A stretch of DNA of 64,000 bases, taken from contig JAWPMO010000001.1 of assembly GCA_033344875.1 (NCBI GenBank), positions 3,063,595 through 3,127,594 on the forward strand, in the 5' to 3' direction. Source of the DNA: Ilumatobacteraceae bacterium. Lineage in GTDB: Bacteria > Actinomycetota > Acidimicrobiia > Acidimicrobiales > Ilumatobacteraceae. The notes below the pieces were generated by a model, which did not search any database, was not told where the DNA came from, and saw nothing but the letters and a program-made list of their open reading frames with translations. This document shows, piece after piece, positions 2,791 through 45,731 of the stretch (its first letter is position 1; each line of letters opens with the position of its first letter). A program made the translations under genes and the position numbers.

Positions 2791-4218
2791 TCAGAACGAC
2801 GTGGCGATGTACTGGGTCTCGCAGAACTCGTAGATGCCCTCGCTCGCGCCTTCGCGGCCGAGTCCCGATTGCTTCATGCCACCGAACGGCGCCGCCGGGT
2901 CGGAGACCGAACCGCGATTCAGGCCGATCATCCCGGCCTGGATGCGCTCGCTGACCGCGAGACCGCGGGCCAGGTCGCTGGTGAACACGTAACCGATGAG
3001 CCCCATCTCGGTGTCGTTCGCCTGACGGATCATCTCGTCGGTGTCGGTGAACGTGATGATCGGTGCGACCGGCCCGAAGATCTCCTCGCGGGTGATCGGG
3101 GAATCCGGCGCGACGTTGGCGAGCACGGTGGGCGCGTAGAAGCTCCCCGGGCGATCGAGGCGGGCGCCGCCCAGTTCGATCGTGGCGCCGGCAGCGACCG
3201 CTTCGTCGACCAGGCCGGCGACCTTGTCGACGGCCTCGTCGTGGATCAACGGACCGCACTCCACACCATCGGTGAACCCGTCACCGACGGTGATCTCACC
3301 CATCGCCGCCGCGAACTTGCGGGTGAACTCATCGGCGACGTCGGCGTGCACGAAGAACCGGTTCGCCGCCGTGCACGTCTCGGCCGAGTGCCGCATCTTG
3401 GCGACCATCGCACCCTCGACCGCGGCGTCGATGTCGGCGTCGTCGAACACGATGAAGGGTGCGTTGCCGCCCAGTTCCATGACCGACTTGAGGACCCGGT
3501 CGGCCGCCCGCTTCAGGAGCTTCTGTCCGGTCGGCGTCGAACCGGTGAACGACACCATGCGAGTCGCCGGGTGATCGACGGCGGCATCGAACCAGGCGCC
3601 CGAACTCTCGGCCACGGTCACGTTGACGAGGCCGCCGGGTACCCCGGCCTCGGTCAGCAACTCCGCGATCCGCAGGGCGGTGAGCGGCGTCTCCGTCGGC
3701 GGCTTGATGACCACTCCGTTGCCGGCCGCGAGTGCGGGAGCGAGTTTGCGGGTGATCATCGCCGCCGGGAAGTTCCACGGCGTGACGATCACCACCACAC
3801 CGACCGGCGGATGGTGCACGATGATCCGGTTCGCACCCGACGGGGCGGTCGTCAGCGACCCCCGGATCCGCACTGCTTCCTCGGAGTTCCAGCGGAAGAA
3901 CTCGGCGGCGTACGCGACCTCGCCGCGGGCGTCGGCGAGCGGCTTGCCCTGCTCGGTGACGATCAGGCCGGCGAGTTCCTCCTGGTGCTCCATCATGAGC
4001 TCCCAGCAGCGCCGGAGGATCTCGGCTCTCTCGCGCGGCGCGACCGTGGCCCATGCCTGCTGCGCGACGTGGGCGGCCTCGCAGGCCGCGGCGGCGTCGT
4101 CGGTCGTCGCCGCGGCGACGTCGGCGATGTGCTCCCCCGTCGCCGGGTTGGTCACGGCGACCGTTGCGCCGGACGAACCGTCGCGCCACTCCCCACCGAT
4201 GAACAGCTGTGTCTGCAT
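2791..4218 (-). CDS. gabD: Succinate-semialdehyde dehydrogenase (NAD(P)+)
   Basis: A 475-residue aldehyde dehydrogenase with TPWNFP, IKPPTETP, general base Glu in MELGGNAPFIVF and the nucleophile in SAETCTAANRFFV; the C terminus GMKQSGLGREG is typical of the GabD/SSADH branch. It is the last gene of the leftward hpa transcript, 21 nt after hpaH. Homoprotocatechuate meta-cleavage ends in pyruvate plus succinate semialdehyde, so oxidation of the latter to succinate fits both sequence and context. The specific substrate is inferred. Confidence 0.8.
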   Translation of the reverse strand: MQTQLFIGGEWRDGSSGATVAVTNPATGEHIADVAAATTDDAAAACEAAHVAQQAWATVAPRERAEILRRCWELMMEHQEELAGLIVTEQGKPLADARGEVAYAAEFFRWNSEEAVRIRGSLTTAPSGANRIIVHHPPVGVVVIVTPWNFPAAMITRKLAPALAAGNGVVIKPPTETPLTALRIAELLTEAGVPGGLVNVTVAESSGAWFDAAVDHPATRMVSFTGSTPTGQKLLKRAADRVLKSVMELGGNAPFIVFDDADIDAAVEGAMVAKMRHSAETCTAANRFFVHADVADEFTRKFAAAMGEITVGDGFTDGVECGPLIHDEAVDKVAGLVDEAVAAGATIELGGARLDRPGSFYAPTVLANVAPDSPITREEIFGPVAPIITFTDTDEMIRQANDTEMGLIGYVFTSDLARGLAVSERIQAGMIGLNRGSVSDPAAPFGGMKQSGLGREGASEGIYEFCETQYIATSF

Positions 4219-4239: not shown

Positions 4240-5073
4240 TCAGGCGAAGTCGAGCGTAACGACACCGAGGTCGCCGAAGTCGGCCTCGATGTGATCGCCG
4301 GCGCGGCAATCGACCGGCCGCGTGAACGAACCCGCGAGGATCGTCTCGCCGGCTTCGAGTGTGACGCCGATGCCGTGGAGGCGGTCGGCGAGCCAGACGA
4401 TGCCCATCACCGGGTCGTTCAGGACACCCGCGCCGAGGCCGGTCTCCTCGACCACCCCGTTGCGCGAGCAGATCGCACCCGACCACCGCAGCCGGCCCTC
4501 CCTGGCGTCGGCCACCGACACCGGTCGATCCCCGACGGCGATGCCCGCATCGGCCGCGTTGTCGGAGATCGTGTCGCGCACCGTCCGCGGGCGACCGTCG
4601 ACCGGATGGATCCGGTGGGAGCGCGCATCGATCAGTTCGAGCGCCGGCACGATGTGCGACGTCGCGGCGTACACGTCGTCGACCGTGAACCGGCCGGTGA
4701 CCTCGTGGGCGACGAGTGCGCGGTCGAGCACGAACGCGAACTCCACCTCGATCTTGGGGTCGAGATAATCGGCGGCCGACAGCGTGGCGCCGTTCGCCAG
4801 GAACATGTGATCGAGCAGCGCACCGAAATCGGGTTCGTCGATCTGCATCGCCATCTGCATCGCGCGGCTGGTGAGACCGATCTTGTGGCCGCGAACGGTC
4901 GCACCGTCGGCGACCTGCAGGTCGATCCAGGCCGACTGGATCGCATACGCGTCGTCGAGCGTCATGTCGGGATGCCGTCGGGTCACCGGGTCGATGGGTG
5001 TGACGGTGCGTCGTGCCCGTTCGTGATCGGCCGCGATCGACGCGATCTGGTCGGGCGAGAGGGTGACGGCCAT
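4240..5073 (-). CDS. hpaH: 2-oxo-hept-4-ene-1,7-dioate hydratase
   Basis: A 277-residue member of the 2-keto-4-pentenoate hydratase family (fumarylacetoacetase fold). Visible family features are VRGHKIGLTSRAMQ, the acidic metal-binding stretch LDPKIEVEFAFVL and the C-terminal AGETILAGSFTRPV. In the homoprotocatechuate pathway HpaH hydrates 2-oxo-hept-4-ene-1,7-dioate to the 4-hydroxy acid. The ATG at 5073 shares one base with the hpaE stop codon (TGATG), so translation is probably coupled. The upstream in-frame extension to 5304 lies inside hpaE and is rejected. Confidence 0.85.
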   Translation of the reverse strand: MAVTLSPDQIASIAADHERARRTVTPIDPVTRRHPDMTLDDAYAIQSAWIDLQVADGATVRGHKIGLTSRAMQMAMQIDEPDFGALLDHMFLANGATLSAADYLDPKIEVEFAFVLDRALVAHEVTGRFTVDDVYAATSHIVPALELIDARSHRIHPVDGRPRTVRDTISDNAADAGIAVGDRPVSVADAREGRLRWSGAICSRNGVVEETGLGAGVLNDPVMGIVWLADRLHGIGVTLEAGETILAGSFTRPVDCRAGDHIEADFGDLGVVTLDFA

Positions 5074-6602
5074 CAGATCTTCCCCAGTTTCGGGATCGCG
5101 TGCGTGCCGTACGCGACCGAGATGTTCTTGGTCTCGGTGTAGAACTCGAACGAGTGCTCCGGTCCACCGTCGCGACCGATGCCGCTGGCCTTGGTACCGC
5201 CGAACGGTGTCGGCAGATGACGGACGTTCTGACTGTTGACCCAGATCATTCCCGCCTCGAGGTCGCGCGCAACTCGATGGGCGCGCCCGGTGTCGCCGGT
5301 CCACAGGTAGCCGGCGAGGCCGTAGTCGACGTCGTTGGCGATCGCGACCGCCTCGGCCTCGTCACCGAACGGGATCACCGTGAGCGCCGGTCCGAAGATC
5401 TCCTCCTGGGCGATGCGCATCTCGTTGGTCGCGTTCGTGAAGAGCATCGGGTTGACGTAGTTGCCGGCCGGATCGATCGGATCGCCGCCGCCCACGAGCA
5501 CCGTGGCACCGTCTTCCACGGCCTTGGTCGGGTAACTCCGGACCTTCTCGCAGTGCCGGGGATGGATCAACGGGCCGATCTCGGTCGTCGGGTCGAGCGG
5601 GTGACCGACCCGCAGGGCCCGGACACGCTCGCTCAGGGCCGCCACGAACTCGTCGTGGATCGACGACTGCACGAGCAGCCGACTCGACGACGTGCAGCGC
5701 TCGCCGTTGAGGCTGTAGATCATGAACACGACGGCATCGAGCGCCCGCTCGAGATCGGCGTCGTCGAACACGATCACCGGGTTCTTGCCGCCGAGTTCGA
5801 AATGGACCCGTTTGAGCGTTGGGGCACCCTGCGCCTGGATCATCGAGCCGGTGACGGACTCGCCGACGAACGCGATCGCTCGGATCAGCGGGTGTTCGGT
5901 GAGCGCCTTGCCGGCGGTCTCGCCGAACCCGTGGACGGTGTTGAGCACACCGGCGGGGAGACCGGCCTCGTGGGCGATCTCGGACAACATCGCTGCCGTG
6001 TAGGGGCTCCACTCGGCGGGTTTGTGCACGACGGTGCAACCGGCCGCCAACGCCGGTGCGATCTTCCAGGTCGACAGCATGAACGGCGTGTTCCATGGCG
6101 TGATGACGCCGACGGGGCCGATCGGCGTCCGCGTGGAGAAGTTGACGTGGTGCTCGTCGGGCATCGACCGGCCGTTGCCCGCGTCGGGCGCGTGGTCGGC
6201 GAAGAAGCGGAAGTTCTCGGCACCGCGGATCGCGGCGGCCGACATGAACCGGATGGTCTGGCCGGTGTCGACGCACTCGACCGCGGCGATCGCGTCGGCG
6301 CGCTCCTCGATCAGGTCGGCGACCCGGTGAAGGATCCGCTTGCGCTCCTTGCCCGGGCGACCCGACCAGTCGGCGAACGCCGACTGTGCCGCCTGCGCCG
6401 CGGCGTCGATGTCGGTGGCATCGCCGGACGCGACCGAGCCGAGCGTCGACGAATCGACGGGCGAGAGGTTGTCGAAGGTGTCGCCCGACGCACTGGCGAG
6501 GTGGGTTCCGCCGACGAAGTGCAGCAACGTGGCGGATCGGAATCGTTCGAGTTCGTCACGAGCGATCGCGGTGTACTCGTCGAAGGTCTTCGTGACGGCC
6601 AT
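5073..6602 (-). CDS. hpaE: 5-carboxymethyl-2-hydroxymuconate semialdehyde dehydrogenase
   Basis: A 509-residue aldehyde dehydrogenase. It has TPWNTPFMLSTWKIAPALAAG, general base Glu in FELGGKNPVIVFDD, nucleophile Cys in NGERCTSSSRLLVQ, and FGGTKASGIGRDGG near the C terminus. This combination is characteristic of HpaE/HpcC, which oxidises the ring-cleavage semialdehyde to 5-carboxymethyl-2-hydroxymuconate. It lies between hpaF and hpaH with 1-nt overlaps on both sides, giving one operon with strong functional agreement. Confidence 0.92.
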   Translation of the reverse strand: MAVTKTFDEYTAIARDELERFRSATLLHFVGGTHLASASGDTFDNLSPVDSSTLGSVASGDATDIDAAAQAAQSAFADWSGRPGKERKRILHRVADLIEERADAIAAVECVDTGQTIRFMSAAAIRGAENFRFFADHAPDAGNGRSMPDEHHVNFSTRTPIGPVGVITPWNTPFMLSTWKIAPALAAGCTVVHKPAEWSPYTAAMLSEIAHEAGLPAGVLNTVHGFGETAGKALTEHPLIRAIAFVGESVTGSMIQAQGAPTLKRVHFELGGKNPVIVFDDADLERALDAVVFMIYSLNGERCTSSSRLLVQSSIHDEFVAALSERVRALRVGHPLDPTTEIGPLIHPRHCEKVRSYPTKAVEDGATVLVGGGDPIDPAGNYVNPMLFTNATNEMRIAQEEIFGPALTVIPFGDEAEAVAIANDVDYGLAGYLWTGDTGRAHRVARDLEAGMIWVNSQNVRHLPTPFGGTKASGIGRDGGPEHSFEFYTETKNISVAYGTHAIPKLGKI

Positions 6603-7015
6603 CAGGGCTCCTCGGTCGCGGTCGGGTCGTTCGTGGTGCGCTCACGAACCAGCTCGCGGAGGTGGTTCCGGTTGATCCGGCGCTCCGGGTCGATCTCCTG
6701 GTACTCGACGCTCAGCATCATCGTGCGGCCGGCGGCACCGACGGTGTCATCGAGCGCCGTCATCAGCACATCGAGCAACCGCTGTTGGTCGTCGGCGCTG
6801 CGGCCCGCCCCCAGGCGAGCGGTGACGGCGATGAAGGCGTTGTCGGGGTGTCGGTCGGCGATCGCGTAGTGGTCGCGGCGCACGGCACGGGTGCGGAGCG
6901 CATCGAGCGCGGCGATCCCCGTGCCGAGCGCGGCGTCGTGCAACGCATCGACCAGCGCGTCGATGGACACGTGGTCGGTGACGTTGGCCGAGTACTCGAT
7001 CGTCAGATGCGGCAT
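6602..7015 (-). CDS. hpaF: 5-carboxymethyl-2-hydroxymuconate delta-isomerase
   Basis: A 137-residue protein starting MPHLTIEYSANV; Pro2 becomes the N-terminal catalytic proline after Met removal, as in the tautomerase-fold CHMI family. The conserved internal HPDNAFIAVTARLGAGR is typical. It isomerises 5-carboxymethyl-2-hydroxymuconate to the oxo form ahead of decarboxylation. It is the first gene of the leftward hpa operon and overlaps hpaE by one base. On its strand a GATAAT box ends about 6 nt before the ATG, so the mRNA may be leaderless. Confidence 0.9.
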   Translation of the reverse strand: MPHLTIEYSANVTDHVSIDALVDALHDAALGTGIAALDALRTRAVRRDHYAIADRHPDNAFIAVTARLGAGRSADDQQRLLDVLMTALDDTVGAAGRTMMLSVEYQEIDPERRINRNHLRELVRERTTNDPTATEEP

Positions 7016-7029
7016 TGCGTTCCATTATC

Positions 7030-7039
7030 TAACATGTTA
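7030..7039. promoter_or_regulatory. Palindrome TAACATGTTA in the divergent hpa promoter, probable HpaR operator
   Basis: A perfect 10-bp inverted repeat sits in the middle of the 38-bp gap between hpaF (leftward) and the HpaG-like gene (rightward). The -10-like boxes of both promoters (GATAAT leftward, TAAGTAT rightward) flank or overlap it. MarR-family repressors such as HpaR bind short AT-rich palindromes in divergent promoters, and hpaR is the second gene of the rightward arm. Binding is inferred. Confidence 0.65.
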
Positions 7040-7053
7040 AGTATGGACGCAAC

Positions 7054-7908
7054 ATGCGATTGCTGAGCTACTCCCACGAAGGTCGAGCGGCGTACGGGGC
7101 CCTCCTCGCCGGCGGCGTCGTCGACCTGACGCACCGCATCGACGGCGTCCGCGACCTGTCGGATCTGCTGCGTCAGGAGCGGCTCGACGAGGCGCGCGCC
7201 GCGGTCGCCCACGCCACACCCGACGTGGCGCTCGACGACATCTCCTACGAGCGGACACTCCCGTCACCCGGCAAGATCTTCTGCATCGGCGTGAACTACG
7301 GCGGCCGCAACGCCGAGTACCGCGACGGGCAGGAAGCACCCGACAAGCCGAGCGTGTTCGTGCGCTTCCCGGCGTCGTTCACGGGTCACGAGCACGATCT
7401 CGTGCGGCCGCCCGAGAGCGAGCAACTCGACTACGAGGGCGAGATCGTCGCTGTGATCGGGTGCGGCGGTCGGCGCATCCCGCGGGAGCGCGCCCGCGAA
7501 CACATCGCCGGGCTGACGCTCGGCAACGAGGGCACGATCCGCGACTGGGTCAGGCACGCGAAGTTCAACGTCACGCAGGGCAAGAACTGGGAGTCGTCCG
7601 GCGCGATCGGGCCGTGGATGGTCACGCTCGACGAGATCGGGGCATTCGATGACCTCCACCTCACCACGCACGTCAACGGTGAGCTCCGTCAGGACGACTC
7701 CCCCGCCACGATGGCGTACCCGATCGAGTACCAGATCGAGTACCTCTCCACGTTCTGCAGCCTCGAGCCGGGCGACCTGATCTTCACGGGCACCCCCACC
7801 GGCGCCGGCGCTCGCTTCGACCCGCCCCGGTTCCTCGCGCCGGGCGACGTCGTCGAGGTGACGGTGCCCGAACTCGGCACCCTCCGCAACGGCGTCCGTG
7901 ATGAATGA
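7054..7908 (+). CDS. hpaG: Fumarylacetoacetate hydrolase family protein, HpaG-like isomerase/decarboxylase
   Basis: A 284-residue single-domain FAH-family enzyme. Family marks are FCIGVNYGGRNAEY, LDYEGEIVAVIG (metal-binding acidic residues), TLGNEGTIRDWVR, QGKNWESSGAIGPW and the C-terminal GDLIFTGTPTGAGARFDPPRF. In this context the likely job is decarboxylation of 5-oxopent-3-ene-1,2,5-tricarboxylate (the HpaG step). Enterobacterial HpaG has two such domains and about 430 residues; this one is single. The start lies 15 nt after the palindrome, and the transcript is probably leaderless. Confidence 0.75.
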   Translation: MRLLSYSHEGRAAYGALLAGGVVDLTHRIDGVRDLSDLLRQERLDEARAAVAHATPDVALDDISYERTLPSPGKIFCIGVNYGGRNAEYRDGQEAPDKPSVFVRFPASFTGHEHDLVRPPESEQLDYEGEIVAVIGCGGRRIPRERAREHIAGLTLGNEGTIRDWVRHAKFNVTQGKNWESSGAIGPWMVTLDEIGAFDDLHLTTHVNGELRQDDSPATMAYPIEYQIEYLSTFCSLEPGDLIFTGTPTGAGARFDPPRFLAPGDVVEVTVPELGTLRNGVRDE

Positions 7909-8377
7909 TCCCGGCGACGCCACCGCGCCGCTCGCGGAGACCGGACTGCGCAGCTTCGACGAGTCGCTCCCGATGGCGCTGTTGCGTGCCCGCGAATCGA
8001 TCATGCGGCAATTCCGCCCGATCCTCGGCGCTCACGACGTCACCGAACAGCAGTGGCGCGTGCTGCGCGCGCTCGACGACGCCGACGAACCCGTCACCGT
8101 CGGCGAGCTCGTCGACCGGACCTTCCTCCTCGGGCCGAGCCTGTCGCGCATGCTGGTGACGCTCGACGATCGTGGGCTGATCACCCGGTCGACCGATCGC
8201 GGTGATGCACGTCGATCGCAGGTCGCGATCAGCGGTGCCGGACGCCGACTCGTCGCCGCGATCGCCCCGCACAGCGAAACCGTCTACGCCGAGATCGGTT
8301 CGCAGCTCGGTCGGGCCGACCTCGACCAGCTGTACGACCTCCTCCGCCGCACCGCCGACATCGGAGCCGGATCATGA
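7901..8377 (+). CDS. hpaR: MarR-family transcriptional regulator HpaR
   Basis: About 158 residues with LRSFDESLPMALLRARESIM followed by TEQQWRVLRAL and the winged helix FLLGPSLSRMLVTLDDRGLI. The opening segment is the hallmark of HpaR, the repressor of homoprotocatechuate catabolism that responds to hydroxyphenylacetates. It overlaps the upstream hydrolase by 8 nt and the P450 by 4 nt. Its expected target is the palindrome at 7030-7039. The start could also be the in-frame ATG at 7898. Confidence 0.88.
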   Translation: MNDPGDATAPLAETGLRSFDESLPMALLRARESIMRQFRPILGAHDVTEQQWRVLRALDDADEPVTVGELVDRTFLLGPSLSRMLVTLDDRGLITRSTDRGDARRSQVAISGAGRRLVAAIAPHSETVYAEIGSQLGRADLDQLYDLLRRTADIGAGS

Positions 8378-9687
8378 CGTCGTCGAACACGTACCACCGG
8401 GCGCCCGATTCGATCGCCGCCGCCCCGACCGGATGCCCGATGAACCGCGAGTGGTCGCCGCTCGACGCCGACTACCTCGCAGATCCGTACCCGATCGCCA
8501 ACGCACTACGCGACGAGCATCCGATCTTCTACTCCGAACGGCTCGGACACGTCGTCGTGACTCGGATGGCCGACATCGAGCACGTGTTCCTCCACCCCGA
8601 CGTCTACGCCTCGGCCAACGTGCAGGACCCGGTGTTCCCCCTCGCACCCGAGGCGGTGGCGGTGCTCGACGCCCCCGACTACGACCCGATCGCCGTCATG
8701 TCGAACCGCCCGGAACCCGATCACGCACGCATCCGGGTCTACACCCGGGGCGGCTTCTCCAACCGTCGACTGAAGTCGCTCGAGTCGTACATGCGCGAAC
8801 GTGCGTCGGCCCTGCTCGACGAGATGCTGGCATCGGGCGACCGGGCCGAGTACGTGGCCGCGCTCGCGTTCCCGCTGCCCGCCGAGATCGTCTTCCGCTT
8901 CATCGGCTTCCCGCAGGACGACGACGCCATGATCAAGCAGTGGTGCGTCAACCGACGGGCGTTCAGTTGGGGTCGACCGTCCGCCGACGAACAGGTCGCG
9001 ATCGCCGAGGGCATGGTCGACTACTGGCGGTACTGCCGGGAGTTCGTGGCCGCTCGCCGCGACGACCGACGCGACGACTTCACCTCCGAACTCCTCGACG
9101 CGCACGATGCCGACCCCGACCCGTCGAACGGCACCGGAATCTCCTACCGCGAGGTCGAGTCGGTGGTCTACGGCATCTCGTTCGCCGGCCACGACCCGGT
9201 CACCGCGCTCCTGTGCAACACGCTCCGCTGCCTCCTCCCGCGGCGGGAGCAGTGGGACGCCCTGTGCGAGGACCCCTCGCTCGCTGCGGCCGCCGTCGAG
9301 GAGACGCTCCGGTTCGAGTCGAGCCAGGTGTCGTGGCGGCGGATCACGACCCGACCGACGACACTCGGCGGGGTCGACCTGCCGGCCGGCACGCGCCTCC
9401 TGCTGAACTTCGCGTCGGCCAACCACGAGCCCGAGGTGTTCGTCGATCCCGACGAGTTCGACATCCACCGGGCGCACGCCAACCGCCACATCTCGTTCGG
9501 CAAGGGCATCCACTTCTGCCTCGGCGCCGGACTCGCACGCATGGAGGCCCGGATCGCGCTCGAACTGCTCAGTCAACGTGTGCCGTCGCTCCGGCTCGCC
9601 GCCGACCAGGAGCTGACCTACTTCCCCAACATCACCTTCCGTGGGCCCGAACGGCTCGAACTCGAGTGGGACGGCGTCGCGCCGTGA
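8374..9687 (+). CDS. Cytochrome P450 with altered I-helix
   Basis: A 437-residue P450. The heme loop is FGKGIHFCLGAGLARME with thiolate Cys382, the K-helix is EETLRFESSQVSWRR, and there is no membrane anchor, so it is a soluble class I type needing ferredoxin partners not encoded here. The I-helix reads FAGHDPVTALL: the acidic residue is kept, but the usual neighbouring Thr for O2 activation is replaced by Pro. It overlaps hpaR (ATGA) and ligA (GTGA), so it is co-transcribed with the ring-cleavage genes. A hydroxylation or O-demethylation that makes the catechol is plausible but unproven. Confidence 0.85.
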   Translation: MTSSNTYHRAPDSIAAAPTGCPMNREWSPLDADYLADPYPIANALRDEHPIFYSERLGHVVVTRMADIEHVFLHPDVYASANVQDPVFPLAPEAVAVLDAPDYDPIAVMSNRPEPDHARIRVYTRGGFSNRRLKSLESYMRERASALLDEMLASGDRAEYVAALAFPLPAEIVFRFIGFPQDDDAMIKQWCVNRRAFSWGRPSADEQVAIAEGMVDYWRYCREFVAARRDDRRDDFTSELLDAHDADPDPSNGTGISYREVESVVYGISFAGHDPVTALLCNTLRCLLPRREQWDALCEDPSLAAAAVEETLRFESSQVSWRRITTRPTTLGGVDLPAGTRLLLNFASANHEPEVFVDPDEFDIHRAHANRHISFGKGIHFCLGAGLARMEARIALELLSQRVPSLRLAADQELTYFPNITFRGPERLELEWDGVAP

Positions 9688-10049
9688 GCCTGTATGCGAC
9701 CCAGAAGTTCCTGTACGAACTCAACCGGTCCGAGACGCTGCAGGCGGCCTACCGGGACGACCCCAGAGCCGTACTCGAACCGTACGAACTCACCGACGAC
9801 GAGGCCGCGGCACTGGTCGAACCCGACATCGGTCGGCTGTTCCACCTCGGCGTCAACGGTCAGATCCTCATGCACTTCGCCGCACTCCACAAGATCGAGT
9901 GGCAGGACTACCTCCAACGGATGCGCGACGGGATCGCGCAGCACGGTCCGGTCCGCGAGGGGGTCTACGCGATGACCACCGGCGTCGACGAGGTCGTCGC
10001 GCCCGTCCACGAACACGACGGGCCCGACGACCAGGAAGGAGCGCGCTGA
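9684..10049 (+). CDS. ligA: LigA-type alpha subunit of class III extradiol dioxygenase
   Basis: A 121-residue helical small subunit: TQKFLYELNRSETL, the DDPRAVLEPYELTDDEAAAL segment, and HLGVNGQILMHFAALH. This is the LigA domain of protocatechuate 4,5-dioxygenase-type enzymes, which caps the active site of LigB. The GTG start at 9684 overlaps the P450 stop (GTGA), and the stop overlaps the ligB-like start (TGATG). A much longer upstream reading frame exists but lies inside the P450 gene. Confidence 0.85.
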   Translation: MSLYATQKFLYELNRSETLQAAYRDDPRAVLEPYELTDDEAAALVEPDIGRLFHLGVNGQILMHFAALHKIEWQDYLQRMRDGIAQHGPVREGVYAMTTGVDEVVAPVHEHDGPDDQEGAR

Positions 10050-10870
10050 TGCCGCTCGTCTTCGCGGGGGTCTGCTCGCATGCGCCCGGCATCACCGGAC
10101 GCGCCGACCAGGCCGACCCCGATGTCCGCGACCGCTTCTCCGCCGCGTTCGACGGCATGCGCGCCGACCTCGAAGCGGCGCGACCCGACGCGATCGTGAT
10201 CGTCGCGGCCGAGCACTTCGCCAACTTCTTCATGAACAACATGCCGTCGTTCGCGATCGGGATGGCCAATCACTACGACGGACCCATCGAGGATCCGGAA
10301 TGGCTCGGCATCGAGCGCCGCCGTGTGCCCGGCGATCGCGAGCTGTCCGAGCGGTTCATCACCCGGGTGATGCAGACGTCCGACGTCAGCTACGCGGAGG
10401 AATGGAAGTTCGACCACGGGATCATGGTGCCGCTGCACTTCCTCACCCCGCGCTACGACGTCGCGGTGATCCCCGTGAACGTCAACTGCCAGGGGCCGCC
10501 GCTGACGCCGCTGCATCGGGCATGGGCGTTCGGCGAGTCGATCCGAGCGGCCTGTGACGAGCTCCCCGAACGGATCGCCGTCATCGGCACCGGCGGCATC
10601 TCGCACTGGCCGGCCACCCCCGACTCGGGGAAGATCAACGTCGAGTGGGACCTCGACTTCATGGACCGCTGGTGCCGCAACGATCGCGCGGCCCTCCTCG
10701 ACTACGACGACCTGACCGTCTACACCGACGCCGGGCAGGGCGGATTCGAGATCCGCACGTTCATCACGGTCGCCGCCGCGGCCGGGGGTGCCACCGGAAC
10801 CGTGCACTTCTGCGAACCGATCCCGATCTTCGCCGTCAGCTGCACCGTCGCCACCTACGACCTCGGCTGA
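10049..10870 (+). CDS. ligB: LigB-type catalytic subunit of class III extradiol dioxygenase
   Basis: A 273-residue non-heme iron dioxygenase. Early SHAPGITG contributes an iron-ligand His; NMPSFAIG, the WKFDHGIMVPLHF active-site segment and the GTGGISHW catalytic His follow in LigB order. These enzymes open catecholic rings beside the hydroxyls with O2. The start ATG overlaps the ligA stop and has an AGGAAGGA ribosome site. It is more like protocatechuate/gallate-type LigB than E. coli HpaD, yet it sits with hpa genes, so it probably supplies the homoprotocatechuate (or related) ring-cleavage step. Confidence 0.82.
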   Translation: MPLVFAGVCSHAPGITGRADQADPDVRDRFSAAFDGMRADLEAARPDAIVIVAAEHFANFFMNNMPSFAIGMANHYDGPIEDPEWLGIERRRVPGDRELSERFITRVMQTSDVSYAEEWKFDHGIMVPLHFLTPRYDVAVIPVNVNCQGPPLTPLHRAWAFGESIRAACDELPERIAVIGTGGISHWPATPDSGKINVEWDLDFMDRWCRNDRAALLDYDDLTVYTDAGQGGFEIRTFITVAAAAGGATGTVHFCEPIPIFAVSCTVATYDLG

Positions 10871-27955: not shown

Positions 27956-28060
27956 GGCAACTCGTCGGAGCACCGATCGCTCAGGACATTTGGCTGGGCT
28001 GCCACGATGCATTGTGGGGCACTCGGTTGCCTCAGAGTTCCATAGACCGTCGCATCGGGG

Positions 28061-28417
28061 CTATTCCAGAAACGTGCTTCCGTCACGAAGGCGACGATAG
28101 ATGGGCCTCGTCTTCTTGCCGTTGATGAGTGCGTGAGCCGGATTGTCGTCCGTCTCGTCCGACACACAGTCCAGACCGAGCCCGACCGCAAGTTCAACTG
28201 AGAACTCTGCGACACCGACGCCGTCCTTCCTGGTGTACTGATGGTCCTCACCCATCGCCTCCACTATGCGCCGACGATCGACGGACAGCGAGGGGTCCTT
28301 GAACGCAGCGGTCGAGACCTTCATCCGTCCCGAATCGTCCGGGACGTATTGCTTCGGATGGACCCGACGCCAGACCAGCTCGTCGGGGTCAAGTGGCTCT
28401 GGCTGCGAAGGCGGCAA
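28061..28417 (-). CDS. Small conserved hypothetical protein with LSVD and NPAHA motifs
   Basis: A 118-residue cytoplasmic protein. It opens with LVWRRVHPKQYVPDDSGR, then KVSTAAFKDPSLSVDRRRI, a middle VAEFSVELAVGLGL, and DDNPAHALINGKKTRPIYRRL. From memory this spacing (aF..LSVD, then NPAHA) recurs in a scattered family of small proteins of unknown function; I do not know a role. It starts 3 nt after the 175-residue gene and is the last gene of the operon. Its DNA is visibly less GC-rich than the chromosomal flanks. Confidence 0.65.
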   Translation of the reverse strand: MPPSQPEPLDPDELVWRRVHPKQYVPDDSGRMKVSTAAFKDPSLSVDRRRIVEAMGEDHQYTRKDGVGVAEFSVELAVGLGLDCVSDETDDNPAHALINGKKTRPIYRRLRDGSTFLE

Positions 28418-28420
28418 CGC

Positions 28421-28948
28421 TCAGGCGATGCGGTCCGCAAGCAGCGAGTTCAGTTGAGCCACACCTCGCCCGTCGTTGGGCTGGCCTGCAACCTTCCATT
28501 CAATGTCGATCTCATCATCGTCGGAATAGGCGTTGCCAACAGCGGGGCCCTCCGGTGGCACTTCGACCTCGACAGACAAATCTGGACGATGCCACTCGAG
28601 TTGCACAGCGCCGGACGACAGGGGCACGACGTGGGGCCGAGAAATGGTCGGTGGCATACGGTTCAGAATGTCCACGGCTCGCTTGACACTCGACGCGTGA
28701 ATCGAGCGCTCGCCGCAGCCGTTCCAGTTCGCCTTCAGGGCAACCACATCCCGCAGGTCGTCCAGTAAGTCATCCAGCCAGGCCGCCTCACGCAGCGTGG
28801 GCTCGATGTACAGAGTGATTGTCGCAGTTAAGGGCAGCCAGTCGTCCGAGAACGCCGAGCTACGAACGTCCTCGTCTGTCGTAACGTCCTCCACGCTCCA
28901 GTGCGATTCGTTGCCGATCGCTGAGCTCTTGGCTAGTACAGCAGTCAT
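28421..28948 (-). CDS. Hypothetical protein, middle gene of TIGR04255-like operon
   Basis: 175 residues. A central LDDLLDDLRDVVALKANWNGCGERSIHASSVKRAVDIL resembles the NW-x-G-yG segment of uncharacterised small proteins, followed by HVVPLSSGAVQLEWHRPDLSVEVEVPPEG, likely a beta-sheet, and an acidic segment YSDDDEIDIEW. No catalytic motif, membrane helix or signal is visible. It overlaps the upstream gene by 4 nt (ATGA) and leaves 3 nt to the downstream gene, so the three products are probably made in fixed ratio. Confidence 0.65.
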   Translation of the reverse strand: MTAVLAKSSAIGNESHWSVEDVTTDEDVRSSAFSDDWLPLTATITLYIEPTLREAAWLDDLLDDLRDVVALKANWNGCGERSIHASSVKRAVDILNRMPPTISRPHVVPLSSGAVQLEWHRPDLSVEVEVPPEGPAVGNAYSDDDEIDIEWKVAGQPNDGRGVAQLNSLLADRIA

Positions 28949-29742
28949 TGGATTCGCTCCCAGTGTGTGTGCATCTCGTTCGTGGTTAGCGCGGTGAACG
29001 TTCTCACGATTGCTTCGTGTCCTATGTCTAGGAACCGCAAAGCGCCCTGGAATGTTTCGTTCTCAGCATTCCCTCGTGCGACAAGAGTCAGCATCAGCGC
29101 TGCACGCCCCGTCTCGTTGTTCATTGCTGGTTGGACTGTAGCCCTCAAACCTCCATCGGTTCCTGGCAATGTGAACTGAAGGTTCAAGGCGGCCGTCTTA
29201 AGTTCAGCATGTAGTTCATCATTGAGGTCACCGCTCCAGGGCTTGAATACAGCACCAAGCTCACTCGGCTGCTCCCAGATTCCCGGCGTTGCTTCGATGG
29301 GATTCACGTACGTGACCTCAGCCACATCAGGACGAGGCTCCTCGTATCCGAACTCGCCGAGGTGCTGCACCAGCAAGGTCCACGCCTTCTCAAGCCGAGG
29401 CTTGATGGTGTCGTACCGGGGGTACGGGTCGTTCCCTTGCCGGCGCCAGTTCACGGCAATTCGGTCTCGCTGTAACTGAACGAGGTGCGACTCGTCTTGA
29501 GAGAGAAACCAGTAGCGAGGAACCGGCGGCGTGCTCGAGAACTCGAACTCGACGGTCCGTTCGAGGTCGGTCGTCATTCGTCCGAGAGGCGGCATGTCAC
29601 GAACGATCGGGTAGTCAGGCTCGAGCAGCGACCGGATGCTCGCAAGGTCGGCCGAGCTCAATGGACGGTCCGTCTCGAACTGCACCGCCAGCGCGACCTC
29701 GTAGACGGGAGGCTTTCCGTAGGACGGAAGCGACATCGTCAT
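28945..29742 (-). CDS. TIGR04255-like family protein
   Basis: About 265 residues. Features that recall the sporadic TIGR04255 family are the opening KPPVYEVALAVQFE, the central RYWFLSQDESHLVQLQRDRIAVNWR followed by YPRYDTIKPRLEKAW, and VAEVTYVNPIE. Function is unknown; no enzyme motif is evident, and the fold looks like paired alpha/beta halves. ATGs at 29742 and 29736 are both possible. It is the first gene of a three-gene operon of unknowns on a mobile element. The family call is from memory. Confidence 0.7.
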   Translation of the reverse strand: MTMSLPSYGKPPVYEVALAVQFETDRPLSSADLASIRSLLEPDYPIVRDMPPLGRMTTDLERTVEFEFSSTPPVPRYWFLSQDESHLVQLQRDRIAVNWRRQGNDPYPRYDTIKPRLEKAWTLLVQHLGEFGYEEPRPDVAEVTYVNPIEATPGIWEQPSELGAVFKPWSGDLNDELHAELKTAALNLQFTLPGTDGGLRATVQPAMNNETGRAALMLTLVARGNAENETFQGALRFLDIGHEAIVRTFTALTTNEMHTHWERIQ

Positions 29743-29918
29743 CGTGCGTCTCGTTCGATCATCGCCTGCAACGATGTCACCATAACGTCTGCCGTGCCGA
29801 ATCCGTAGGCACCGTCGGCTGCTCCAAACCCGGGTTTGCATCTGTGTGGCCGACGAGAGCCGCGACATTCAGTCCCGCGGGCCAATCTCGTAGGCGTCTG
29901 CAGGGTCTATCAGCGGGG

Positions 29919-29933
29919 CCTCCGTAACGGAGG
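29919..29933. promoter_or_regulatory. 15-bp palindrome upstream of the excisionase-like gene
   Basis: CCTCCGT-A-ACGGAGG, perfect 7-nt arms round one central base, 27 bp before the start at 29961 and in the gap between divergent transcripts. It is a good candidate operator for the small HTH protein or a partner. Confidence 0.55.
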
Positions 29934-29960
29934 TACCTCGTTCGGTGCTTTCAGTGGGTG

Positions 29961-30308
29961 ATGAGCTCCGTCGGCGACGTTGCCGCGCCGCACACCTGTG
30001 CTGCGCCGGATCTGCTGACGCCTCGCGAGGCGATGGCGGTTCTTCGTATCGGGCGCACCACGCTCTACGCCGAGGCTCGTCGCTTCGGCGAGTCCGACGG
30101 AGCTGTCGGGATTCCGAACGTCGAGGTCGGCGGACAACGCCGGTTCCCACGTGTCGCTCTCGAGACGATGATCGGCTGCCCGATCACATGGCCGCCGTTC
30201 GACCTCGACACAGCCGCCACTTCGCCGCCGGCTGACACCACGTCGCACTCCGCTCCCTCGCAGCGCGCTCGTCGCTCGTCCGACTCTCAGCGGCTTCGAC
30301 GCGTCTGA
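29961..30308 (+). CDS. xis: Excisionase-like helix-turn-helix (AlpA/HTH_17) protein
   Basis: About 115 residues. LLTPREAMAVLRIGRTTLYAEARRFGESDG then GGQRRFPRVALETMIG is the excisionase/MerR-type winged HTH that recognises DNA through one helix and a wing. The C-terminal 40 residues are Ser/Thr-rich and disordered. It lies directly before the relaxase. In such elements this class either helps the integrase excise or activates transfer genes. An in-frame GTG at 29958 is an alternative start. Confidence 0.75.
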   Translation: MSSVGDVAAPHTCAAPDLLTPREAMAVLRIGRTTLYAEARRFGESDGAVGIPNVEVGGQRRFPRVALETMIGCPITWPPFDLDTAATSPPADTTSHSAPSQRARRSSDSQRLRRV

Positions 30309-30387
30309 GGTCCGCCATGAACGCTCACCGCACCGACCCCTCGCGACAAATCAAGAACAGACAGGTGCCCGGCCGGAGGTGTGAGGG

Positions 30388-33300
30388 ATGTTGAGGGTCT
30401 CCACCATCTACGCAGCGAGCGCCACCGCCACGGCGACCTACTACACGCAGTACCTCACAGACACTCCCGGCGAGCAGCCGGGCGACTGGCATGGCCGCCA
30501 GGCTGCGCTCCTTGGGCTCGGCGGTGACGTCACCACGGACGCGCTCGAACTGCTCCTCACCGGCCATGACCCAAGCCTTGGGACACCGCTCGGTCGGCCA
30601 TTCGTCGACACCTTCCGCTCCGACGGCACCGTCATCCGCTCCGTCGCCGGGTTCGACGCGACGTTCTCCGCGCCGAAGTCGCTGTCGGTGCTCTGGGCAC
30701 TCACCAGCGACGACGGGCTCGCCCGTTGTCATGACGTCGCGGTCAGCGCTGCGATCGACTATCTCGAACGTCACGGAGCGACGACTCGCGTCCGATCCAA
30801 CGGCGGCCGGCAACATCTCGACACCCACGGACTCATCACCGCCGCGTTCCGCCAAACCACCTCACGCGCCGACGATCCGCAACTGCACACCCACGTCGTC
30901 ATCTCGAACAAGGTGCAGACCCACGATGGGCGATGGCTCGCGCTCGACGGCCGCGTCCTCAAGCAGCATCAGCGCGCGCTCGGCGGGCTGTACCAGTCGG
31001 TGCTCCGAGCCGAACTCGCCGCTCGCTACGGCGTGACATTCGACGAGATCGTGAACGGACAGGCCGAGATCGCGGGCGTGCCCGAGAAACTGCTCGAACA
31101 ATTCTCGAAGCGCACCGCCGAGATCGGCATCGCGATGCGGGACAAGCTGACCGGCTTCTACGCACGCGAGGGTCGCGACCCGACCCGGTTCGAGCGAGCA
31201 GCGCTCGAACGAGAGGCCGCCGCCGACACCCGAAGCCGCAAGACGGGCGCGGCCGTCACCGATCTGCGCACACGTTGGCTCGACGAAGCAGCGCAGGTCG
31301 GCGTCACGCCGAGTCAACTGATCACCGAGATCCAAGCGGCGGCACGCGCCAACCCCGACCCAGACGAGAAGCTCTCGGTGAGCGAGGTGCTCTCTCAGCT
31401 GGCCGATCGGCGGTCGACGTGGCATCGGATGGACGTGCTGCGCACGATCTGTGACGCGACATCACCGCAGCCTGGCATCGACGACGCGACGTGGGTGGCC
31501 AAGCTCGACCGGGCAGTCGACGAGGTCCTGGCGCAGTGCGTCGCGCTCGACCCGCCGGCAGATGGCGCTCGTCGGCGGACCTCGGATGGGCGGTCGGTCT
31601 GGCTCCCGCCGGTGACGTCACACATGACGAGCGAGCAGGTGATCCTCGAAGAAGACGTCATCATCACGTGGGCCATCGAATACAGCACCGTTCCGCCGTC
31701 GCCTTCGCAGACGATCGAGGTCGGCCAACTCGACATGCTCCAAGCCGAAGCAGCGGCCGACGTTGCCGGGCAGGACCCGCTCGCCATGGTCGTCGGCCCG
31801 GCAGGTGCCGGCAAGACCACGATGCTGCGCGCCGCCGTCGATGACCTCGATCGCCAAGCCCGACCCGTCTACGGGCTCGCCCCGACGGCGAAGGCGGCGC
31901 GGGTGCTCCAGGAAGGCACGGCGATGGAGTGCGACACCGTCGCCAAGCTCCTCTACGAATGGCGGCAGCCCGACCGTCCACCCAGATCCGAATGGCGACT
32001 CGCGCCCGGCACGACGGTGATCGTCGACGAGGCCGGCATGCTCAACACCGCCGACCTCCGGCATCTCATCGAACTCAGCCGCGAACAGCGATGGCGGATC
32101 GCGCTCGTCGGTGATCCGCACCAGCTGCAGGCCGTGGGTCGGGGTGGCATGTTCGCCGAGCTGTGCGACATGGGTCGTGTTGTCGAACTCGAGCGCCTGC
32201 ATCGCTTCGACCACGCGTGGGAGGCCGCCGCCTCGCTGCGCATCCGCCATGGCGATCCATCCGGCCTCGACATGTACGAGAGCAGCGGACGCATCGTCGC
32301 CGGGTGGTTCGACGAGCACTTGGACACGATCGCCGACTATTGGCAGCGCCACAGCCCGCACGGCCGAGTCGCCATCACCACGATGTCGAACGATCATGTT
32401 GCGGCCCTCAACGACCGGATCCAGCAGACGCGAATCGAAGTCGGTCAGCTCGGCGCTCGGTCAGGCGAGATCGCCGATAGTCGACACGCCCACGTCGGCG
32501 ACACGGTCGTCACTCGCCGCAACTGTCGCAGCCTCGTGACCACCGGCGGCGACCACGTCCGCAATCGTGACTACTGGACCGTCACTCACATCGGCGACAA
32601 CGGCGATCTCACCGCGTCCCGCATCGACGGACACGGGAGCGTCACGCTGCCGGCCGACTACGTCCACGAGTTCGTCCAACTCGGATACGCAGCCACGGAA
32701 CCCGGTAACCAATCCGACGACGCTCACCGGGCCATCACCCTCGTCTCGCCGGCCACGACGTGCCGCGGCCTGTACGTCGCGATCACACGAGGGCAGGCTG
32801 AGAACATGATGCTCGTCGTCACCGACACCCACGACGTCGCCGACGCGAGAGAGGTACTCGACCGCGTGCTCGTCAACGACCGCGCCGACCTCCCCGCCAT
32901 TCGGCAACGACGAGAACTCGCCGAGCTGCAGCCATGTCGACGACACGTTGCGCCGACGCCACGCTGCCAGATCCCCGCCTGGTTCGACGAGGCTCGCACT
33001 CGCGTCGTCGATCGCGTCAGCGGCCTGCAAGTCCGACTGGATGAACTCGACTCGCACCGCAAGCAGGCAGAGCAGGACCTCGCAACCGCCGCGCACCATG
33101 TCGCTCAGGCTGACGAACGCCTCGCTGGCTACGACCAACACGTCGCGGAACTGCGTCACGGCGTCGACCGCTTGACAGCTGAGATCACCGCCGCTGCATA
33201 CCGGGTGAACGGCTCGGGCGTACTCGCTGGCCGACGTGCTCGCGCCCGTCGCGATGAGCTGACAGCGAATCGGTCCGAGCTTCAGGCCGCACTCGAACAG

Positions 33301-33690
33301 TCAGCCAAGAACGCCGCCCCGCTCAAGGCCGAGCAGCGAGCGACATGGGTCCAGCGTCAGCACGCCGCCGAGACAGCCGATCGGCTGGAGACCGCCGGAG
33401 CGGAACTCACCCTCGAACTGACCGAAGCAATCGGAGAGCACACATCCCTCACCACGTGGAACGAATGGGCACTCGGAAAGCCGGTCGAGGCCGGAGCTCT
33501 CGTAGGCGCCATCCACTCGCTCACCCAGTCAGCCGAACTCGACCACCGAAACCTGGCTGGGCCGCTCGCGGACTGGTGCGAGGCCAACGGCGTCGTGGTA
33601 GCGACGGCGGTATCCCACCCAATGTCAGGCCAGCGGCAAGCGGGGGCCGCTCCCGCGGAGCCGACCATCCAGCTTGGGATCGACCTCTGA
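30388..33690 (+). CDS. MobF-family relaxase-helicase (TrwC/TraA-like)
   Basis: 1100 residues. The N-terminal TrwC relaxase domain has FDATFSAPKSLSVLW (about 89-103) and the metal-binding histidines of HTHVVIS (His167, His169), with Tyr18/Tyr19 as nucleophile candidates. The RecD-like helicase has Walker A VVGPAGAGKTTM (about 467-479) and Walker B VIVDEAGM, plus the late CRGLYVAITRG motif. A coiled-coil C-terminal third (about 870-1010) follows. It nicks oriT and unwinds DNA during conjugation. A GGAGGTGTGAGGG ribosome site precedes the ATG. No coupling protein or secretion genes are seen nearby. Confidence 0.92.
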   Translation: MLRVSTIYAASATATATYYTQYLTDTPGEQPGDWHGRQAALLGLGGDVTTDALELLLTGHDPSLGTPLGRPFVDTFRSDGTVIRSVAGFDATFSAPKSLSVLWALTSDDGLARCHDVAVSAAIDYLERHGATTRVRSNGGRQHLDTHGLITAAFRQTTSRADDPQLHTHVVISNKVQTHDGRWLALDGRVLKQHQRALGGLYQSVLRAELAARYGVTFDEIVNGQAEIAGVPEKLLEQFSKRTAEIGIAMRDKLTGFYAREGRDPTRFERAALEREAAADTRSRKTGAAVTDLRTRWLDEAAQVGVTPSQLITEIQAAARANPDPDEKLSVSEVLSQLADRRSTWHRMDVLRTICDATSPQPGIDDATWVAKLDRAVDEVLAQCVALDPPADGARRRTSDGRSVWLPPVTSHMTSEQVILEEDVIITWAIEYSTVPPSPSQTIEVGQLDMLQAEAAADVAGQDPLAMVVGPAGAGKTTMLRAAVDDLDRQARPVYGLAPTAKAARVLQEGTAMECDTVAKLLYEWRQPDRPPRSEWRLAPGTTVIVDEAGMLNTADLRHLIELSREQRWRIALVGDPHQLQAVGRGGMFAELCDMGRVVELERLHRFDHAWEAAASLRIRHGDPSGLDMYESSGRIVAGWFDEHLDTIADYWQRHSPHGRVAITTMSNDHVAALNDRIQQTRIEVGQLGARSGEIADSRHAHVGDTVVTRRNCRSLVTTGGDHVRNRDYWTVTHIGDNGDLTASRIDGHGSVTLPADYVHEFVQLGYAATEPGNQSDDAHRAITLVSPATTCRGLYVAITRGQAENMMLVVTDTHDVADAREVLDRVLVNDRADLPAIRQRRELAELQPCRRHVAPTPRCQIPAWFDEARTRVVDRVSGLQVRLDELDSHRKQAEQDLATAAHHVAQADERLAGYDQHVAELRHGVDRLTAEITAAAYRVNGSGVLAGRRARARRDELTANRSELQAALEQSAKNAAPLKAEQRATWVQRQHAAETADRLETAGAELTLELTEAIGEHTSLTTWNEWALGKPVEAGALVGAIHSLTQSAELDHRNLAGPLADWCEANGVVVATAVSHPMSGQRQAGAAPAEPTIQLGIDL

Positions 33691-33848
33691 CAGATGAGCC
33701 GCAGACAATCGCGGGCACGGATCTCCATACCACCCGCCGGCAGCGGCGAGGCGCCCATTCCCAGTCCCATAGGGCCACGCATCACCGAGACGCAGTGATG
33801 TGCGTCGGCCCGTTGCGGTCCACACCTCTTGGGTGAGATGATCGACGA

Positions 33849-35072: not shown

Positions 35073-35286
35073 CAGTATTCGTACCGAACGCGAGGTGACT
35101 TCCCGCGCCATTGACTGAGACTGGTTCGGCGAATCCCGTAGCCAGATCCAGATGGCCGTACCTGCGCAGCCACTCACTTCTAATCGGGAATTATCTCGTG
35201 TCACGGTTGGGTAGATATGTCGGTGATCCACCCGCCTGCTTGTTCCGTCGGTGACGATGGTGCAGCGGGCGTGATCGGAGGATCAC

Positions 35287-37331: not shown

Positions 37332-37838
37332 GGGCCGTTCTGTGACGCGGCTTGCTCGACGGCGGTCGTGACTACCGGGCGCCGATATCGGGTGGCCCTG
37401 AACGAGGTCTCGAGCAGCAACCCGGCCCGCAGTTTCTGAGTGAAGCCCCGCGTGTCACACACCGGCCTGACGAGCGATCATGTCCGGCAGGTCGCGGATC
37501 TGCTTGACCCGCTTTAACTTGATCACATGGTCGAGCACTGCGTCAGGCATCCCCGCCTCGCGCATGAAGCGATGCGCAACAGTTTGCTGTCTGATCGCCG
37601 ATGGCGGAGTATGTGAGCTGGTGATCGGATGGGCGGTGTCGAGGGGGATCGAACCGAGGCGAATGGCCGAGTCAACATCGATGCTCGGCTGTGACGCAGT
37701 ATCGACCCGGGTGGATCGGGGGTCCGATGTCGGTGAGAGATCTGTTTGGCCGTGCCGTCGGTCTCGATTGACACCTGCGGTCGAGATCTTCGTCTTACCG
37801 CGTGACACATTTGAGGCCTCACCGCCCTTTCTTCGGTG
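37332..37838. other. Gap of about 500 bp; possible gene remnant on the minus strand
   Basis: No complete gene is convincing. On the minus strand the frame ending at 37455 reads MREAGMPDAVLDHVIKLKRV then KQIRDLPDMIARQAGV, which looks like a genuine protein C terminus because of its composition, but the upstream part is low-complexity and antisense to the sigma-factor gene. It could be the tail of a gene truncated when the recombinase module inserted. Confidence 0.35.
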
Positions 37839-39846: not shown

Positions 39847-40009
39847 AACTCGCCCCGTCTCGATGCCGGCGCACTGGTTCGCATATTACGTGGCACCGCA
39901 CCGGGGCCGCGATGCGGCGCGGAGGCGTCCGAACGTCAAGTTCGACGCGTGGTAGCTGGCCGGTGTGGAAGTGTGGATTCAGACCTTTGACCCGATCATG
40001 GAGGCACGG

Positions 40010-45729: not shown

Positions 45730-45731
45730 CG

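Follow-up and report, generated by a model that had tools for sequence, protein, structure and literature searches.

A 64,000-nucleotide (nt) stretch of the genome of an Ilumatobacteraceae bacterium (hereafter the window; GenBank assembly GCA_033344875.1, contig JAWPMO010000001.1, positions 3,063,595 to 3,127,594; the genome is a single contig of 4.97 Mb) carries a set of homoprotocatechuate (hpa) catabolic genes combined with genes for a cytochrome P450 and a two-subunit dioxygenase of the LigA/LigB type. Homoprotocatechuate (3,4-dihydroxyphenylacetate) commonly arises when tyrosine and plant aromatics are degraded. Re-derivation of the genes gave a minus-strand unit of hpaF, hpaE, hpaH and an SSADH-like gene, and a divergent plus-strand unit of hpaG, hpaR, the P450 gene, ligA and ligB (Table 1). 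The hpaH and hpaE genes overlap by 1 nt at the hpaE stop, and the plus-strand genes overlap by 11 or 8 nt (hpaG/hpaR), 4 nt (hpaR/P450), 4 nt (P450/ligA) and 1 nt (ligA/ligB), the last three confirming a sequence-only reading in which the P450 and the LigA/LigB pair were described as joined into the operon by overlaps of 1-4 nt.

Table 1. Features of the hpa-P450-ligAB locus, with positions counted in the window
Feature	Position	Strand	Family evidence or remark
SSADH-like aldehyde dehydrogenase	2791-4218	-	547 bits vs SSADH cut-off 646 (best match, under cut-off)
HpaH, 2-oxo-hept-4-ene-1,7-dioate hydratase	4240-5073	-	TIGR02312, 341.8 bits vs cut-off 351.5 (best match, under; scanned without the first codon)
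HpaE, 5-carboxymethyl-2-hydroxymuconate semialdehyde dehydrogenase	5073-6602	-	TIGR02299, 791 bits, cut-off 638 (over)
HpaF, 5-carboxymethyl-2-hydroxymuconate isomerase	6602-7015	-	PF02962 (CHMI), 102 bits, cut-off 26.5 (over)
Divergent promoter region, 38 bp	7016-7053	.	contains TAACATGTTA (7030-7039), a palindrome that is probably the HpaR operator
HpaG-like fumarylacetoacetate-hydrolase-family protein, isomerase/decarboxylase step	7054-7908	+	PF01557, 219.5 bits
HpaR, MarR-family regulator	7898 (or 7901)-8377	+	TIGR02337, 141 bits, cut-off 121 (over)
Cytochrome P450, Pro275 at the I-helix threonine position	8374-9687	+	PF00067
LigA-type small subunit, GTG start	9684-10049	+	PF07746, 47.5 bits, cut-off 25.3 (over)
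LigB-type catalytic subunit, proposed homoprotocatechuate 2,3-dioxygenase	10049-10870	+	PF02900, 113.6 bits, cut-off 26.3 (over)

The same reading had recognized a lower homoprotocatechuate pathway here, and the family scores agree: HpaE, HpaF and HpaR lie over their cut-offs, and HpaH, the HpaG-like protein (160 bits to TIGR02303, HpaG-C, with a cut-off of 276) and the SSADH-like enzyme, which is probably the last step of the pathway, find these families as their best matches, below the cut-offs. It had further noted the lack of HpaD, HpaB/HpaC and HpaI genes at the locus and proposed a variant pathway. A search of the whole source genome favours such a variant, as nothing exceeds the cut-off for HpaD, HpaB or HpaI. 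HpaB (PF03241) has no match anywhere in the genome (HpaC was not part of the search), the best score to VOC-type HpaD (TIGR02295) is 35 bits against a cut-off of 321, and the best to HpaI (TIGR02311) is 152 bits against 369. For class III HpaD (the HpaD_Fe model TIGR02298) the best protein of the genome, at 24 bits, is the window LigB itself, which scores about 24-25 bits where 316 are required.

The window LigB passes no NCBIfam model, and its best subfamily match is PRK13364 (139 bits, cut-off 290). In an alignment of 22 LigB proteins (that of the window and those of 21 of the 80 related loci described below), the iron ligands His11, His56 and Glu234 and the catalytic His123 and His186 are kept in every sequence. 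The Ser-Asn pair and NDHA motif of strict protocatechuate 4,5-dioxygenases are, in contrast, lost: the NDHA Asn has become Ala in 22/22, and in the C-terminal pair Phe stands for the Ser in 22/22, and Ala (21 sequences) or Ser (one) for the Asn. The position of this pair was mapped onto the protocatechuate LigB of the same genome by spacing, 32 residues past the iron-ligand Glu in both proteins. According to the accessible part of PMC8431788, the NDHA Asn is an iron ligand and the Ser-Asn pair is among the residues that contact the substrate; in a DesB mutant complex, as described in the accessible part of PMC3962378, residues of the LigA-like domain are bound to the substrate carboxyl. The combination of conserved chemistry with an altered acid-binding end would suit an enzyme that has gone over from carboxyl- to carboxymethyl-bearing substrates.

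Phylogeny and predicted structure both place the protein with the protocatechuate enzymes. In a tree of 39 rows, a single clade on the protocatechuate-LigB side unites the 22 LigB of this group, with support of 89/84, which is below the starred level, and with long branches flagged for L017, L172 and others; a true HpaD (L172) and the HpaD-like rows lie across a 100/99 split from that clade. Five AlphaFold2 models of LigB had mean pLDDT values from 83.5 to 49.2. The best of them (pLDDT 83.5, pTM 0.88; weak at residues 58-61 and 189-192) aligned with DesB and LigAB (1bou) at Z 31-32 (root-mean-square deviation, rmsd, 2.4-2.7 over 259-268 residues) and with MhpB at Z 30.6 (rmsd 2.1, 263 residues), and more poorly with the HpaD 8iq8 (Z 25.0, rmsd 3.0, 259 residues). 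The Foldseek ranking was concordant with these Z scores.

What ties this dioxygenase to the hpa genes is their distribution. Among 395 genomes of the class, 67 have some LigB match and 14, the source genome included, have a close orthologue (at least 69% identity). The LigB proteins of the 13 relatives are 69-78% identical to that of the window, the next full match is at 38%, and a fifteenth genome holds a 55-residue LigB fragment at 69%. The ligA gene adjoins ligB in 13/13 relatives (on the opposite strand in three), and hpaE, hpaF, hpaG, hpaR, hpaH and the P450 gene recur near the pair in shuffled order. P450 orthologues, at a cut-off of our own choosing (E<=1e-110), occur in 13 of the 395 genomes, all 13 of them among the 14 LigB carriers; the carrier lacking one, G334, has its locus on a 7.2-kb contig. 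HpaF (PF02962) is found in 15 genomes, 13 of them LigB carriers. The hypergeometric probability of such coincidence, with relatedness ignored, is 2e-23 for P450 and LigB and 2e-21 for HpaF and LigB. In three genomes (G322, G378, G387) hpaE-F-G-H-SSADH lie on one contig, the P450 gene on another and ligAB, adjoining apparent respiratory-complex genes, on a third, with all components present; co-presence despite this separation is stronger evidence than linkage alone. Because the same gene set recurs in relatives, the hpa-P450-LigAB association is not a product of chance.

Several arrangements among the relatives may be recorded here. In genus g70 the ligB and ligA genes (L049, L051, L054) lie on opposite strands amid genes that by eye resemble those of NADH dehydrogenase (nuo), apart from the hpa genes, and a 329-residue protein of the zinc-binding-dehydrogenase family is encoded between hpaG and hpaH (L191 10301-11290, the copy that was scanned; L193 6159-7148; L195 5570-6559). 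An SSADH orthologue adjoins hpaE in L050, L191, L193, L195 and L094, and ligA in L136.

The association of LigAB with hpa genes extends beyond the phylum. A wider scan of 84,980 genomes yielded at least 431 relatives, and the 80 best loci were examined; at least seven of these are contigs already counted among the 14 class genomes. With identity floors of 40-45% for P450, HpaE and SSADH, these 80 loci contain LigA, beside LigB, in 79 cases, HpaE in 50, HpaG in 47, HpaR in 47, HpaH in 41, HpaF in 35, P450 in 27, HpaI in 15 and SSADH in five. Fourteen loci carry Proteobacteria titles (several are from metagenome-assembled genomes, MAGs); their LigB is 70-75% identical to that of the window, HpaE lies beside LigAB in 12/14 and the P450 is present in 0/14. 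Delftia, Variovorax, Caenimonas and Diaphorobacter share the order hpaG1-G2-E-ligA-ligB-F-H, with hpaI in all except Diaphorobacter, as read from the gene maps of L128, L140, L124, L142 and L122 (hpaI in all except L142); in Delftia a transporter-receptor-like gene sits between hpaE and ligA. The Delftia operon passes the NCBIfam cut-offs for HpaG-N, HpaG-C, HpaE, HpaH, SSADH and HpaR, and its HpaI is 7 bits short and its HpaF reaches 39 bits against 215. In E. coli the position between hpaE and hpaF belongs to hpaD, and by this analogy LigAB appears to occupy the hpaD slot in these Comamonadaceae operons.

No protein of the L128, L140, L124 and L142 genomes exceeds the cut-off of either HpaD model, and VOC-type HpaD exceeds its cut-off in 0/24 carrier genomes tested. 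A VOC protein encoded 0.3 kb from hpaR in L142 was considered as an HpaD and rejected: it has a glyoxalase-like domain (PF13468) and is not over the HpaD model. HpaB is present in six of the 24 carriers (Delftia, Caenimonas, Diaphorobacter, G378, G387 and, marginally, G220), the Delftia protein being under the HpaB equivalog cut-off (239 vs 480). A plasmid collection contained no relative at 60% or above, and 192 records with weaker matches.

Second HpaD_Fe-like proteins were also seen in relatives (L173-L179), and there is none in the source genome. Three such stretches (L185-L187) were inspected, and the proteins belong to the LigB family in 2/2 scanned. Their class III dioxygenases (L185 5087-5962, L186 11464-12249, L187 7532-8233) score 127-138 bits to HpaD_Fe, under the cut-off. 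Judged by eye, their neighbours include other P450 genes and, in L185 and L186, genes resembling those for CoA-transferase and acyl-CoA dehydrogenase; the one hpa-type gene seen is for an HpaI-like aldolase (31%) in L186. These neighbourhoods look like some further aromatic pathway.

A shared regulatory element accompanies the genes. The palindrome TAACATGTTA of the 38-bp hpaF/hpaG interval is the only match in the window to [AT]AACATGTT[AT], and AACATGT or ACATGTT occurs in 24 of 31 distinct hpaG/hpaF(E) divergent intervals, as compared with a mean of 0.37 intervals and a maximum of 4 in 500 shuffles that preserved mononucleotide composition only. That count used strict gene-call intervals, and the seven misses include at least two (L105, L109) with the motif beside a mis-called start; in the genus g70 intervals L191, L193 and L195, where the genes are scattered, the palindrome was not found. 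In 1.70 Mb of related loci, which were chosen for LigB or an associated gene and are not a random genome sample, 36 of 38 merged sites are found within the 400 bp preceding an hpa, lig or P450 start as placed by tblastn. One locus, L053, has the palindrome between a divergent P450 gene and ligA. HpaR would probably bind this sequence.

Gene content, gene overlaps, co-occurrence, operon position in another phylum and the pattern of kept catalytic and altered substrate residues are the genomic evidence, and on it we consider it very probable that in the window LigAB a two-subunit enzyme of the protocatechuate/LigAB family has been recruited as homoprotocatechuate 2,3-dioxygenase and takes the place of HpaD. 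The enzyme activities, cleavage position, P450 reaction and HpaR binding that we infer would make up the following pathway. The P450 would convert a phenylacetate derivative to homoprotocatechuate, which LigAB would cleave at C2-C3; HpaE would oxidize the ring-fission semialdehyde, HpaF and the HpaG-like protein would carry out isomerization and decarboxylation, and HpaH the hydration step. An aldolase (HpaI in some relatives) would then release pyruvate and succinic semialdehyde, the latter being oxidized to succinate by the SSADH-like enzyme. Both divergent units would be under the control of HpaR, bound to TAACATGTTA in the hpaF/hpaG interval.

The aldolase step seems to be filled in more ways than one among the relatives, since an hpaI-like gene adjoins hpaH in some loci (L046, L050, L087) and a DapA-like aldolase gene (TIGR02313, 292.9 bits vs cut-off 396.7) adjoins ligB in L052. 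Two candidates in the source genome were considered. The DapA-like protein L200 was rejected, as it passes the cut-off for true dapA (262 vs 206), and the HpaI-like protein L056 (about 33% identity to cluster HpaI, 152 bits) is not supported, though not finally dismissed.

The P450 has the expected Cys-ligand motif FGxGxHxC (FGKGIHFC in the window), which is kept in 39 aligned homologues. Its I-helix is unusual: the acid is kept and the Thr that usually follows it is replaced in 39/39 rows (35 distinct sequences, some genomes being present in two collections), by Ala in 18, Pro in 16, the window protein included, and Ile in five. Among comparison P450s of the same loci that cover this site, 5/7 have Thr, as do 5xjn and RhF. 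The nearest solved P450s are 5xjn/5gwe (276/274 bits), presumably CreJ of Corynebacterium, 6kbh, which we take to be CYP116-like, and RhF (CYP116B, 240 bits). According to the accessible part of PMC8449657, OhpA (CYP116B) hydroxylates 2-hydroxyphenylacetate to homogentisate, which is a precedent for a P450 opening a hydroxyphenylacetate route. Leaving the exact reaction aside, we think it likely that the window P450 makes homoprotocatechuate; ring hydroxylation of 4- or 3-hydroxyphenylacetate is favoured, the chief alternative being that homovanillate is O-demethylated.

That the P450 is not the entry enzyme and acts on an unrelated compound strikes us as unlikely, although several observations point that way. 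No ferredoxin or reductase gene was seen in the cluster on the gene map by eye (no dedicated redox-partner search was made), the P450 is missing from all 14 proteobacterial loci, and G378 and G387 possess P450 and HpaB alike, so the P450 is not demonstrably a strict replacement for HpaB. On the other hand, all 13 P450 orthologues found in the class sit in LigAB genomes, the operator palindrome of L053 lies between the P450 gene and ligA, and the window P450 is tied to both neighbours by its 4-nt overlaps.

A P450-derived analogue had been offered by the sequence-only reading as an alternative substrate of LigAB. Its wider proposal, that LigAB opens homoprotocatechuate or such an analogue, is largely supported, with linkage, co-occurrence across the 395 genomes, the Comamonadaceae operons, the residues and the palindrome all favouring homoprotocatechuate itself. 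A methoxylated, further hydroxylated or isomeric dihydroxyphenylacetate as the substrate, with homoprotocatechuate a minor one, would agree with the overlap of the P450 gene with ligA, with their co-occurrence in 13 of the 14 class genomes, and with the production by OhpA of homogentisate, another dihydroxyphenylacetate, from 2-hydroxyphenylacetate (accessible part of PMC8449657). We regard it as improbable, given that the proteobacterial carriers combine the same LigB and hpa genes with no P450 and that the downstream enzymes are the normal homoprotocatechuate set.

The position of cleavage deserves separate attention. LigAB cuts protocatechuate at C4-C5, and HpaE, HpaF and HpaG require a C2-C3 product. 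Cleavage of homoprotocatechuate at C4-C5, which by our reasoning would end in acetoacetate together with pyruvate, would suit the membership of LigB in a 4,5-cleaving lineage, and the absence of an assigned aldolase in the window genome leaves room for it. We nonetheless give it very little credence: HpaE and HpaF are specific to the 2,3-cleavage product, and the SSADH-like gene, found in the window, beside hpaE in four loci (L050, L191, L193, L195) and in the Delftia operon, suggests succinic semialdehyde, in which C2-C3 cleavage ends.

The source genome has two further LigB-family genes. One of them is nearest to 4,5-DOPA dioxygenase, under the cut-off. The other, whose product shares about 30% identity with the window LigB, belongs to a protocatechuate 4,5-cleavage cluster at 3.417 Mb (L057 5253-10466), apart from the hpa locus, in which PobA (574 bits, cut-off 539), LigK (PRK09262, 332 vs 179), LigA (219 vs 109) and LigB (PRK13366, 541 vs 317) are all over their cut-offs and an amidohydrolase and a Gfo/Idh/MocA oxidoreductase are read as LigJ and LigC. 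With its own PobA, LigA, LigB and LigK, this separate cluster means that protocatechuate is already catered for, and together with the replaced Ser-Asn residues it led us to reject the window LigAB as the protocatechuate enzyme of the genome. An ordinary protocatechuate or gallate dioxygenase lying beside hpa genes by accident, although enzymes of that type are the best family and fold matches (PRK13364; 1bou and DesB), is thus most improbable, given also the loss of the pair in 22/22 LigB, the linkage and co-occurrence with hpa genes conserved across two phyla, and a window locus in which no LigC/LigJ/LigK-like genes were seen by eye.

Some observations nevertheless weigh against a homoprotocatechuate-cleaving LigAB in this pathway. 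The HpaG-like protein has a single fumarylacetoacetate-hydrolase domain instead of two, and the best HpaI score of the source genome is the low one given above. In the class, G391 has LigAB and P450 but not HpaF, and G271 and G365 have HpaF but no window-type LigB; as at most four P450 candidates were scored per genome, the 13 P450 orthologues are a lower bound. HpaE is absent from the stretch examined in 30 of the 80 loci, many of which end at contig edges. Among the 24 carriers, one (G399, a MAG, reached via L137) has a class III HpaD of 397 bits in addition to its LigAB-hpa locus, nine (the source genome not among them) have a further protein of the LigB family that reaches 116-138 bits to TIGR02298 (below cut-off), and some have VOC enzymes with up to 233 bits to TIGR02295 (also below). 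Finally, a characterized protocatechuate 4,5-dioxygenase of the wider family is described as inactive on homoprotocatechuate in the accessible part of PMC8431788.

Taking the parts together, a stand-alone P450 without the I-helix Thr would replace the flavin-dependent HpaBC by converting 4- or 3-hydroxyphenylacetate or homovanillate to homoprotocatechuate, a LigAB retuned to cleave beside the side chain (C2-C3) would replace HpaD, and only LigAB would have passed between Actinomycetota and Proteobacteria along with hpa operons; as a whole we lean towards this scenario with only modest confidence.

Two other regions of the window may be mentioned. A lower-GC segment (28000-43421, GC 0.60-0.68 per 2 kb) encodes a TrwC-type relaxase of 1100 residues (30388-33690), phage-type integrases (35287-36330, 36327-37331, 42105-43298) and an IS110-family transposase (40728-41876), with a tRNA-Ala gene (43346-43421) adjoining the last integrase, and looks like an integrated conjugative element. 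A second P450 gene (47903-49159) belongs to a run (44536-50676) whose other members include a thiolase-like gene (44536-45729), an acyl-CoA dehydrogenase gene (45732-46886) and an AMP-binding ligase gene (49156-50676); the run may be a CoA-dependent degradation cluster that extends towards 63 kb.

If our interpretation is correct, an enzyme of the protocatechuate family would be a third independent solution for homoprotocatechuate cleavage, and a natural example of a change of both substrate and cleavage site within the LigAB scaffold. Automatic annotation probably labels these genes protocatechuate 4,5-dioxygenase, and pathway reconstructions for Acidimicrobiia and Comamonadaceae would then be wrong at the ring-cleavage step. 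With the P450 would come a further way into the pathway, and a case in which to test how P450s work when the usual threonine is missing. Neither this cluster nor a homoprotocatechuate dioxygenase of the LigAB type was reported in the titles and abstract openings of the open-access literature searched, a scope that mostly excludes subscription papers.

The closest known pathway is the 4-hydroxyphenylacetate pathway of E. coli (hpaGEDFHI/hpaBC), which shares HpaE, F, G, H, R and SSADH with the window, whereas the source genome lacks HpaD, HpaB and a close HpaI. Class I HpaD (the VOC type of Brevibacterium and Arthrobacter) shares the inferred reaction with the window LigAB, and its fold is unrelated to that of LigB. 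Class III HpaD (E. coli C HpcB type; 8iq8, the DHPAO of A. baumannii) shares the LigB superfamily, the inferred reaction and the operon slot, but is not known to have a LigA subunit, lies on the opposite side of the 100/99 tree split and is a poorer match in fold (Z 25 vs 31-32). The accessible part of PMC4250580 groups class III homoprotocatechuate dioxygenases with aminophenol dioxygenases in one LigB family, distinct from that of the protocatechuate enzymes. OhpA, the CYP116B 2-hydroxyphenylacetate 5-hydroxylase of Cupriavidus, resembles the window P450 in that RhF is near the latter and in opening a hydroxyphenylacetate pathway, but as far as the accessible part of its description goes it is fused to a reductase and feeds homogentisate, whereas the window P450 is stand-alone, lacks the I-helix Thr and lies beside homoprotocatechuate genes. 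LigAB of Sphingobium SYK-6 (PDB 1bou, 1b4u) and DesB share with the window enzyme the LigA and LigB subunits, the His/His/Glu iron site and the two catalytic His, and differ in sequence, the window LigB being 23-24% identical over the fold alignment. Compared with the protocatechuate LigB of its own genome, the window LigB has Phe-Ala for Ser-Asn and Ala for the Asn of NDHA; and while the LigAB/DesB genes lie in ligCJK clusters, window-type ligAB genes lie in hpa operons.

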